Assembly (NCBI GenBank): GCA_004335835.1
Contig: RWJK01001224.1
Span: 1,185 to 65,184, forward strand
Source: Scenedesmus sp. ARA3
Lineage: Eukaryota; Chlorophyta; Chlorophyceae; Sphaeropleales; Scenedesmaceae
Direction of reading: 5' to 3'
Length of the DNA: 64,000 nucleotides
In this document: positions 4,401 to 62,000 of the stretch, piece after piece
How positions within the stretch are numbered: position 1 is the first letter of the stretch
Layout: every line of letters begins with the position of its first letter
Made by a program: the position numbers and the translations under genes
The notes under the pieces: model-generated
The model's database searches: none
What the model was told of the DNA's origin: nothing
What the model saw: only the letters and a program-made list of their open reading frames with translations

Positions 4401-7135
4401 GCTGTGTCTGCCAACCCTAGGCCCGTGAGCTGCTGTGACAGCCCCGCAGCTGCTGCACTGCTGTCTGCAGCAGCAGCATCTCCTGCAGCTGCTGCTGCTG
4501 CTGCTGTTGGGCCTGCAGGAGCCATGATGTTGCCGTACTGCAGGTCGTTGTGGCAAGCAGCCACCCAGCAGGGGTGAGCTGCACACAGTGCCTGCTGCAG
4601 CTGCATGATCTGCGGGGTTGAAAAAGAGAAACAAAAAAAACCCGCACAGCAAAGAAGCAGCGGCAGCACCAGTGCGCGGCATGCGTGAGGTGGTGTTGAG
4701 TTATCTTCTGCAGCTGATTTCGAACTGCTGGTGGCGCCATTAGCTGCATGCTGAAACTATGTTTGTCAACCATACAAGCAAACTGGGCACGGCATCTGCA
4801 CAGGCAGCGGCATGCGCGCCTGGACCATTTGTACGCACACCATACACAAGGCTAAGCAGCCCATCGCACACAGCTGCGCCGATGCAAAGAGGGCCTAGGC
4901 TGCATTACTGCTGTCTGTTTCAAGTGGCAGCTCAGCTGGCAACCCAGCATGCTGACACACATCATAACTCAGGCTGCAGCTCACCTCATCCTCCAGCCCC
5001 GCCATGCCCAACTGCTGCAGCTCCTGTGCACTGCAGTGCTCCTGCGCCAGCCTGTGACAGCCATGCAACCAAACATGACGCCAGACATAACATAAGTTCA
5101 GGCTGCTGCTCACCTCATCCTCCAGCCCCGCCATGCCCAACTGCTGCAGCTCCTCCCCGCTGCAGAGCTCCTGCGCCAGCCTGCCAGACGCACAACCAAA
5201 ACATCACAAAAAATATTCATAACAACAAAAACAGCTGCTCACCTCATCTTCAAGGCCTGCCATGCCCATCAGCTGCAGCTCCTGTGCACTGCAGTGCTCC
5301 TGCGCCAGCCTGTGCCAGACGCACAACCAAAACATGACGCCAGACATGACTCAAGTTCAGGCTGCTGCCTCACCTCATCTTCAAGGTGTGCCATGCCCAT
5401 CTGCTGCAGCTCCTCCCCGCTGCAGTGCTCCTGCGCCAGCCTGTGCCAGGCCTGCAGCCGCCCCCACAGCTGCACCGGGCCCTGGTGGTGCTCGTCACCA
5501 GCCAGCACCTCAGACTGCAGCAATGCATGCAGACAGAACAGCAACGCCGACAGGATGTTTCAGGGCGATTTCAGTGATGGTTATTAGGGTTTAGGCTTGA
5601 GGGAAGCCTGCCCCACAGCTGCACAGGACCCTGGTGGTGCTCATCACCAGCCAGCGCCTCGGACAGCAAGCAAAACATAGTTCAGGCTGTTTCGGTGGTG
5701 CCAGTGCTGGAGCACTGATGGCCTCGCAGACTGCCAGCTCATGCGTGTCAGCTGCTGCCAGCGTGGCATGTGGTCTGGATGCATGCTGGTGGCTCTGTTT
5801 CAGTTCAGATACATATCACAACAAGCATTTTCCAGGAGTTCCCCAGCTTCTACTGGGGCCTCGTCACACACGCAGTGCTGGCGACCGCACCGCTGCTGCT
5901 GAACACCGAACAAGAACCGCAGCGCCGCCACCCACCATGCGCGAATGGAAGTTTGCCACGGTGTGTGCAATCGCCTCGCTGACTGCCGGCTCATGCAAAT
6001 CAGCCGCCGCCAGCGTGACGTGCTGCGCCAGGAACTGCTCCACGCGCCCGTTGCCAAACAGCAGCAGCAGGCGGGGACCCAGGCCTGCTGCTGACACACT
6101 CTGGAAGGTGGCCACCTCTGCTGCGCGGTCAAAGAGGTCACTGGCGCTGGCGTGCACGCGCATCAGCACCAGCTGCAGTGAAACAGATCAAAAAGATACA
6201 AAACGATACAGAGGAAGATGCAGGGGTTGAGAACTGCTTAGGTGGAACTGTGTTGGGCTGCACATGTGCGACGACTGGCTGTAGACGACTGTGTGTGAGA
6301 ATCGACGGCGCAACACACATGCTGCTGCTGCTGCTTCTGCTGCTGCTACTGCTTGGAATGCACAATTCAAAGCTCAACACGCATCTGTGCGAACTGCACA
6401 AGCTGAAAGTTCGCACAAGCTGCATTCATGGCGTGTTTGCCTTGTCACCATGGCAAGTAACAAGGCTGCCACATGCATCTACAACAATGTGTAACAAACA
6501 CCACACTTGCAGAATGCCTGAGTGAGTAATTGTCTGACACAAAGCCGTTTGTTGACGGTGCCATCATATCCTTTTCTGCTGAGCTTGCTGAGGCTGTCCC
6601 TGCTGCGCTGCCCACCTGAGTTTCTTTGCCACCCTCCTGCAGCCCGCAGCGGTACACCAGGTTTGTCATGGCCCCAGAAAACTGCTCAACTGTGATGTTC
6701 TCCTCGGTCGCCTGTAGCAAAAGTAGCGTCGATGCAGGCAGCAGCAGTGTATATGCAGGCACAGCAGCAGCAGCAGCAGCAGCAGCAGCAGCAGCAGCAG
6801 CAGCAGTGGCAGCAGCTGTAAGCAGGGTATCCCCTATCAGCACGCACAGCTCGCTGTAGAGCTGCATTACTTGTTCAGATGTTGATTCTCGCTGCGTTGC
6901 GCCTAAATGACGCGACCGTTGCAGCACTCCTTGGCAGCACTGACTAGGGTCATGACAAAAGATAGCTGCAGCAAGCAGGCAGCCCCCTCACCGACTCCCA
7001 TCCTTCCAGCAGCTTCAGCACTCCGAGTAAAGCCGCTTTAGGGCGATCGACCAACAGCGGCACGTCGACGAAAGTGTCTGAGGCCGTTGCTGGAGGGGCT
7101 GCCATGTGCCCCTGCTCCATCACGGGAGATGACAT
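1499..7135 (-). CDS. Choline/ethanolamine kinase with giant low-complexity insertion
   Basis: Phosphorylates choline and/or ethanolamine with ATP, the first step of the CDP-choline/CDP-ethanolamine route to membrane phospholipids; probably cytosolic. Seven exons keep frame: 7135-6992, 6711-6616, 6172-5936, 5514-5374, 4609-3679, 3376-2993, 2721-1499 (about 1,051 residues; family members usually have 350-450). Family landmarks in order: N-terminal GAMTNLVYRC (residues ~60-70), LFDR and FGNGRVEQFL in exon 3, LWGRLQAW in exon 4, the Brenner phosphotransferase motif CHNDLQYGNIM (~225-235), the choline kinase motif IDYEYSGFNPVAFDIANHW (~758-776), and the C-terminal LWALWGVIQ / VDFDFEGYGQQR. The two catalytic motifs are normally a few tens of residues apart; here about 520 Ala/Ser/Gln-rich residues lie between them. 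A second insert of roughly 150 residues follows the IDYEY motif. Substrate preference cannot be read from sequence. The start is the first ATG with an in-phase donor. Confidence 0.92.
4970..5372 (-). repeat. Three truncated copies of choline kinase exon 4 end
   Basis: Downstream (in gene direction) of exon 4, its 3' part plus donor recurs three times, beginning near 5239, 5111 and 4982 on the + strand, period about 128 bp. Each copy still reads RLAQE(H/L)CS..ELQQ.GMAGLEDE followed by a GTGAG donor. The copies lack the exon's LW...W start. Small acceptors inside them would change frame if used, so I treat them as intronic duplicates rather than exons. Confidence 0.85.
5605..5772 (-). repeat. 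Degenerate copies of choline kinase exon 4 start and exon 3
   Basis: 5607-5668 resembles the 5' part of exon 4 (LAGDEHHQGPVQLW region), but the acceptor AG is lost. 5714-5770 resembles an internal stretch of exon 3 (the 5966-6020 region). Both lie in the intron between exons 3 and 4 and look like older members of the same duplication process. Confidence 0.65.
6762..6808. repeat. (CAG)n microsatellite in choline kinase intron 1
   Basis: About 14 CAG units on the + strand, which is (CTG)n on the coding strand, lie roughly 50 bp upstream of the exon 2 acceptor. Confidence 0.9.

Positions 7136-62000: not shown

Follow-up and report, generated by a model that had tools for sequence, protein, structure and literature searches.

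The 64 kb of nuclear DNA analyzed here (the window), taken from a draft assembly of 87 Mb in 1567 contigs, raises the question of why introns in this alga carry truncated copies of the edges of their own neighboring exons, how such copies arise, and whether they decay as dead sequence once they are there.

Gene models of the window

Choline kinase and protein kinase domains within the window were confirmed by Pfam. The gene called 'BTB' in the original prediction gave no Pfam family for its 1376-aa reading frame, and an Rfam search of the window for structured RNA returned no matches at the gathering score. Over 95% of its length as query, the MRL1 model shares 97% identity with a Tetradesmus obliquus protein, and the nearest protein to the FKB20-2 model is also from T. 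obliquus. Within aligned exons, 6 of 937 residues of MRL1 and 1 of 281 of FKB20-2 differ from that species, which identifies the DNA as that of T. obliquus or a close relative. Exons of these two genes were anchored by spliced alignment to the T. obliquus proteins, and those of the two kinase domains at 28-46 kb by spliced alignment to Scenedesmaceae kinase proteins. Exons of choline kinase, 'BTB' and the TKL kinase came from an HMM gene finder trained here, the spliced alignment for TKL being weak. The gene finder took several exon-edge copies as exons, and the FKB20-2, MRL1 and kinase-domain models were corrected by spliced alignment; Scenedesmaceae annotations may therefore contain repeated pseudo-exons. 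CTG/CAG triplet runs are very common in the window, in exons and introns alike, and mislead acceptor models because the acceptor consensus is itself TGCTGCAG-like. The shortest of the 43 modelled introns is 161 bp; for the first FKB20-2 exons, which lie outside that list, spliced alignment implies a 92-bp intron.

In the second kinase domain (38848-41038) the motifs HGDLRSP and GDFGF of the first are replaced by RGDLRTS and GDLAF, and from these motifs we presume that it may be a pseudokinase. Between 48000 and 54000 the G+C content is lower (0.48-0.50), with no gene models beyond about 48.2 kb, and this region is nearly free of local duplications, holding one 63-bp pair at 51016-51139.

Copies of exon edges within introns

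Local direct repeats are many in the window by both TRF and self-BLAST, and duplications were present at the places where they had been predicted. Fifty exons (100 sides) of seven gene models were compared with their own flanking introns by Smith-Waterman alignment, which gave 45 copies on 28 exon sides, or 44 copies on 27 of the 100 sides after CTG/CAG-rich matches were filtered out. The original prediction of about 45-50 copies was thus accurate. The 44 copies are distributed over choline kinase (5), 'BTB' (1), FKB20-2 (4), the TKL kinase (4), the first kinase domain (14), the second kinase domain (5) and MRL1 (11). Another 72 copies, which may include real repeated exons, were found in 21 other stretches of the genome (loci L001-L021, about 186 kb) with exons from the HMM gene finder.

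The near exon edge was reached within 4 bp in 98 of the 116 copies from the window and these loci, and the far edge in none. The rule proposed from the sequence therefore stands: copies 5' of an exon hold the acceptor and exon start, and copies 3' of an exon hold the exon end and donor. Relative to their exon, 66 copies are upstream and 50 downstream, with exon parts of 28 to 145 bp, one to four copies per intron and arrays of up to four copies of one edge. Chance similarity was rejected as a cause, since the window exons gave no matches in an inverted search and none in 100 comparisons with introns of unrelated genes. Similarity between CTG/CAG triplets was rejected as well, matches rich in these triplets having been masked or filtered.

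Within choline kinase (minus strand), three copies of the end of exon 5374-5514 with its donor occupy the 3' intron (5243-5318, 5114-5183 and 4985-5070, together spanning 4985-5318). A copy of the start of the same exon, 5' of it at 5605-5663, has lost the acceptor AG, and a copy of part of exon 5936-6172 (5718-5765) does not reach the edge, ending 34 bp before it. In 'BTB' (plus strand) the final 145 bp of exon 10404-10582 are repeated at 10631-10775 with the donor changed to AT. FKB20-2 (minus strand) has an array at the start of its last exon (16959-17036) at 17011-17326, a copy of the last 65 bp of exon 17687-17802 with the donor at 17480-17544, and copies on both sides of exon 18188-18354: one of its end region, 11 bp short of the edge (18034-18085), and two of the acceptor and first 75-78 bp (18431-18655). 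The TKL kinase, also on the minus strand, contains three copies of the end of exon 24067-24309 with its donor (23605-23938) and one of the acceptor and start of exon 24662-25272 (25357-25391).

The kinase on the plus strand carries copies of an exon end and donor at 29218-29272 (exon ending at 29160) and 31079-31118 (exon 30570-30953), and copies of an acceptor and exon start at 29884-29961 (exon 30009-30296) and 33222-33257 (first 36 bp of exon 33334-33465). The intron between exons 33662-33862 and 34854-34991 holds three copies of the end region of the former (33910-34350, of which 34242-34350 is complete to the edge) and two of the start of the latter (34438-34786), these two being separated by a 50-bp run of N at 34632-34681. 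The last 68 bp of exon 34854-34991 recur at 35051-35118 with GC at the donor position. The acceptor and first 66 bp of exon 35395-35493 recur at 35280-35345 with three differences, all of them synonymous, and there are two copies each of the acceptor and start of exon 35884-35994 (35681-35829) and exon 36546-36627 (36298-36483).

The second kinase (plus strand) has single copies of the acceptor and start of exon 38848-38976 (38722-38781) and of exon 39773-39910 (39631-39710; seven synonymous and two nonsynonymous differences), two copies of the end of exon 40286-40390 (40478-40646), and one of the last 51 bp of exon 40928-41038 with the donor (41077-41127), after which the intron is dissimilar. 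In MRL1 (minus strand), the start of exon 57553-57804 is copied once (57855-57896) and the start region of exon 58823-59263 four times (59307-59709). Exon 60171-60328 has a copy of its end and donor at 59904-59956 and four copies of its acceptor and start at 60382-60778, with a period of about 115 bp. A copy of the end of exon 61486-61644 with its donor lies at 61373-61443, and the differences observed there are synonymous.

The expected recurrence across the genome was borne out in the sample, in that clusters of local duplications were found in 15 of the 21 other loci. Loci L003, L007, L017 and L020, two of which lie on one 192-kb contig, are full 10-kb stretches lacking any such cluster, and the density of duplication therefore varies strongly along the genome. 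A kinase relative on contig C1326 matches exon 35395-35493 of the first kinase domain at 87% (L024, 6825-6932). A second match of 88% (L025, 6689-6745) lies 80 bp from it and covers the end part of that exon again; this relative thus seems to have an exon-end copy of its own. On contig C1161 (27240-27613) two GTP_EFTU profile matches about 70 bp apart overlap in profile positions (62-118 and 78-122), possibly reflecting an exon-edge copy in a translation-factor gene.

Spacing, splice sites and intron flanks

Over 77 exon sides the copy nearest to the true splice site lies 89-281 bp away (median 133), with 61% at 95-145 bp, a looser clustering than the 100-128 bp unit first suggested. Copies within arrays are 91-395 bp apart, and spacings of 115 and 129 recur. 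None of the 77 nearest copies is closer than 89 bp, as compared with spacings of 61-85 bp in 4 of 15 non-edge duplication clusters. Copy-to-site distances leave remainders of 0, 1 and 2 on division by three in 28, 35 and 35 cases.

The splice dinucleotide is kept in 93 of 98 edge copies (acceptors 55/58; donors 38/40, with GC counted as a donor). Exon parts of the window copies average 91% identity. With gaps allowed, the intron flank beyond the splice site averages 0.65 against 0.62 (acceptor) and 0.55 (donor) for unrelated sequence. Ungapped identity at flank bases 7-10 is 0.41 versus 0.25 for donors and 0.52 versus 0.31 for acceptors, and is lower farther out. Several copies have 95-98% identity in the exon part next to intron sequence near background. 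The intron part is kept in some arrays, such as those of exon 35884-35994 and TKL exon 24662-25272, and the spacers of the TKL array look homologous by eye, with indels. The claim that the copied units include intron sequence is thus clear for only part of the arrays, and on average similarity is near background within 7-10 bases.

Placement relative to exon edges

Duplication clusters in the window comprise 27 at exon edges, one inside predicted exons and one in intergenic sequence. The 21 other loci contain 55 edge, 6 intron, 3 predicted-exon and 4 intergenic clusters, with none in 6 loci. No cluster among the 97 lies wholly within one exon. Of the edge-or-intron clusters, 82 of 88 are at an edge; uniform placement, not counting placements that cover a whole exon or fall within one, would put about 45% there. 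A detection simulation gave an expected edge share of 0.45-0.50 for divergences of up to 0.14 changes per site in each lineage; at 0.17-0.20 changes it rose to 0.60-0.83. Detection bias thus lifts the expected share only for old copies, and at face value 82 of 88 is a marked excess.

With both the true exons and the exon-derived part of each copy masked, so that intron-intron similarity alone was counted, the clustering recovered 13 arrays at edges, 10 clusters in introns and 5 in intergenic sequence. One of the ten intron clusters is part of an edge array in the unmasked clustering, which makes the ratio 14 edge to 9 mid-intron. As the excess shrinks in this way once exon-derived sequence is masked, it is mostly a matter of better survival. 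The predicted excess of exon-edge over mid-intron duplications is accordingly present in the raw counts and much reduced on intron-intron similarity. We take this to mean that duplications arise widely, while those at exon edges stay recognizable.

Coding signature of the copies

Differences between copies and exons amount to 362 synonymous and 220 nonsynonymous changes, a nonsynonymous share of 0.378 (bootstrap 95% interval 0.333-0.427, 77 exon sides); bootstraps were taken over exon sides because copies of one edge are not independent. The share is 0.381 (0.319-0.452) in protein-anchored genes and 0.357 (0.271-0.484) in FKB20-2 and MRL1 alone. A copy evolving neutrally next to a constrained exon should give 0.609, assuming a kappa of 1.67 and an omega of 0.1 for the exon, and none of 5000 bootstraps drawn from all exon sides rose above 0.464. 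For the first, second and third codon positions the mismatch rates are.064,.048 and.165 in the window and.058,.033 and.179 in the other loci, and the peak follows the frame when the phase is shifted. Relative to the four-fold rate, first- and second-position changes stand at 0.27 for CpG, 0.32 for other G/C and 0.15 for A/T sites, the A/T figure being inflated by exon-lineage changes. Four-fold sites are symmetric, with 85 cases of A/T in the true exon and G/C in the copy and 83 of the reverse. Between copies the nonsynonymous share is 0.515 (63 synonymous, 67 nonsynonymous; pairs not independent), compared with 0.74 for two neutral copies. A net frameshift occurs in 20 of the 116 copies and a stop within the aligned part in 9. 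With differences mostly synonymous and most of the flanking intron no longer alignable, the copies do not resemble dead sequence.

The nonsynonymous share of upstream versus downstream copies is 0.32 versus 0.52 in the window and 0.36 versus 0.33 in the other loci; the contrast in the window was rejected as a general feature since it is absent elsewhere. The synonymous bias is equal whether or not the spacing is a multiple of three, and it is present downstream too. Simple in-frame read-through was rejected because spacing modulo three has no effect, and with the bias also found downstream, translation of the copies is unlikely. Polarizing changes with two copies did not isolate the copy lineage, as the copies differ in age. 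Repeated peptides in the proteins of relatives were rejected as independent evidence, being in-frame coding repeats or domain repeats and not copies of exon edges. In protein P0133 of Scenedesmus sp. NREL 46B-D3, a kinase relative, a disordered part contains tandem repeats, in frame, of 44-45 and of 24-29 residues, and duplications of similar size are thus tolerated in the coding sequence of that protein.

Origin and fate of the copies

Exon-edge duplications are confirmed as a genome-wide feature of this alga, a known kind of event at unusual density and with a signature of coding and splice-site conservation. The copies are best explained as products of local tandem duplications that spanned a splice junction. 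This route, one of those originally suggested, explains the edge rule, the orientation and the arrays; the rule follows because the complete exon is necessarily the one joined to the exon body. Local tandem duplications, mostly with a spacing of 95-145 bp, would arise throughout the genes of the alga. One that spans a junction would be tolerated since splicing at the site still attached to the exon body should yield the correct mRNA, and the intron would retain the extra copy, an exon edge with its splice site, as a unit resembling a minisatellite repeat. This account builds on what was observed, namely the copies, their orientation, the rule, the spacing, the retention of splice sites and the synonymous bias; from here on we infer the fate of a copy after birth.

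A newly formed copy is probably not simply dead. Through unequal recombination, contraction and re-expansion of the array, or gene conversion, it could exchange with functional edges, either of its own exon or of alleles with fewer copies. Such exchange would partly weed out broken copies, and the expected outcome is that the reading frame and splice dinucleotide are conserved while never-used intron spacer drifts away. We favor ongoing exchange as the cause that would account for the conservation, and give tandem duplication across the junction followed by continued exchange, taken as a whole, a tentative probability of about 0.4. The MRL1 array at 60382-60778 supports exchange with one clear mosaic, a copy whose exon part is nearest the true exon and whose flank is nearest other copies. 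That copy, the one next to the exon, has 1 difference from the true exon in its exon part, and its flank is 0.91-0.96 identical to two other copies but 0.67 to the exon's own. Conflict of this kind was seen in 4 of 41 copy pairs, with one strong array, and this low number counts against exchange. So does the symmetry of the four-fold sites, because a copy weakly policed by recombination should drift toward A/T, and so do the frameshifts and stops, which count against a fully functional role too. On the supporting side, the compared segments are present once in the T. obliquus FKB20-2 and MRL1 proteins, as judged by eye for these two genes. A stronger form of the idea, which we consider unlikely, is that exon edges are kept as spares: copies would exchange with or replace the functional edge through array contraction, placing amino acids and splice sites under indirect purifying selection whose channel is recombination and not transcription.

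Plain tandem duplication with neutral decay would make every copy dead and the pattern a product of geometry and of selection against duplications within exons. Geometry alone places about 45% of edge-or-intron duplications on an edge, the masked ratio is 14 to 9, no cluster lies wholly in an exon, and frameshifts and stops do occur. Against this stand the nonsynonymous share of 0.38 where 0.61 is expected, beyond the reach of any of the 5000 bootstraps, the slow change at first and second positions, 0.15-0.32 times the four-fold rate when base classes are matched, and the copies that remain 95-98% identical in the exon part beside intron near background; decay alone is therefore rather unlikely to suffice. 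The same synonymous bias, together with splice sites that work but differ, symmetric exchange at four-fold sites and loss of the intron, resembles divergence between orthologs. It would fit an origin of the copies in functional alleles that had diverged, or in a related lineage, through hybrid ancestry or inter-allelic repair; it would also fit two haplotypes stitched together in assembly, and it fits all of these better than it fits exchange. That the assembly is a draft of 1567 contigs, with a run of N between two copies, points the same way. Arrays of up to four copies of one edge, exon parts that range between 28 and 145 bp, proteins that differ little from those of T. obliquus (6/937 and 1/281 residues), a 331-base MRL1 probe that matched only itself in the assembly, and the frameshifts and stops all speak against an allelic or assembly source, which we regard as unlikely.

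Conservation might also mean that splicing uses the copies, whether as alternative, recursive or poison sites. Retention of the dinucleotide in 93 of 98 copies agrees with this, as does the floor of 89 bp for edge copies against 61-85 bp in 4 of 15 non-edge clusters, as though closer copies could not persist. But the distances are not multiples of three (28, 35 and 35), the bias is the same whether they are or not and extends downstream, where normal splicing would not translate a copy in frame, and the upstream-downstream contrast of the window (0.32 vs 0.52) was not repeated elsewhere (0.36 vs 0.33). Splicing use is accordingly quite improbable, and duplication followed by exchange remains our preferred reading.

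Comparison with known systems

Arguments that introns grow or are gained by tandem duplication usually rest on single cases. A single genome with many copies of all ages, on about a quarter of the exon sides of the window, makes rates, breakpoints and fate measurable. If the synonymous bias holds, intron sequence would here be under coding-type selection even though normal splicing would not translate the copies.

The original prediction held that no named process gives this pattern. However, tandem genomic duplication is a recognized route of intron gain (PMC3443670), and a single case crossing an intron-exon boundary has been published in potato (PMC4974935). As in the alga, the copy in potato consists of intron end, acceptor and exon start; in potato, a single event led to one new intron. 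The alga has dozens of copies inside existing introns, on 27 of 100 exon sides, at acceptors and donors, often in arrays, and with no sign of a new intron. No description of such exon-edge copies in green algae was found among the titles and abstracts of open papers in PubMed Central. Tandem duplication of the proto-splice site AG|GT in Drosophila (PMC2891723; review PMC3443670) is similar in that duplicated splice-like sites allow one copy to go with the protein unchanged. It starts from an exonic AGGT, whereas in the alga an existing donor or acceptor is duplicated. Fill-in at staggered breaks (PMC8355091) likewise produces small tandem duplications locally and without sequence-specific elements; that work concerns induced breaks in mammalian cells and draws no link to splice junctions. 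Introner elements, which are near-identical introns or parts of introns spread over many genes, were not seen with two probes against the assembly, the MRL1 probe matching only itself and a kinase probe matching itself and exon sequence of one other contig. Intronic minisatellites share the tandem arrays, the period of 100-200 bp and the drifting copies, but in the alga one end of the array is the edge of an exon, and the exon-derived part evolves with a coding bias.
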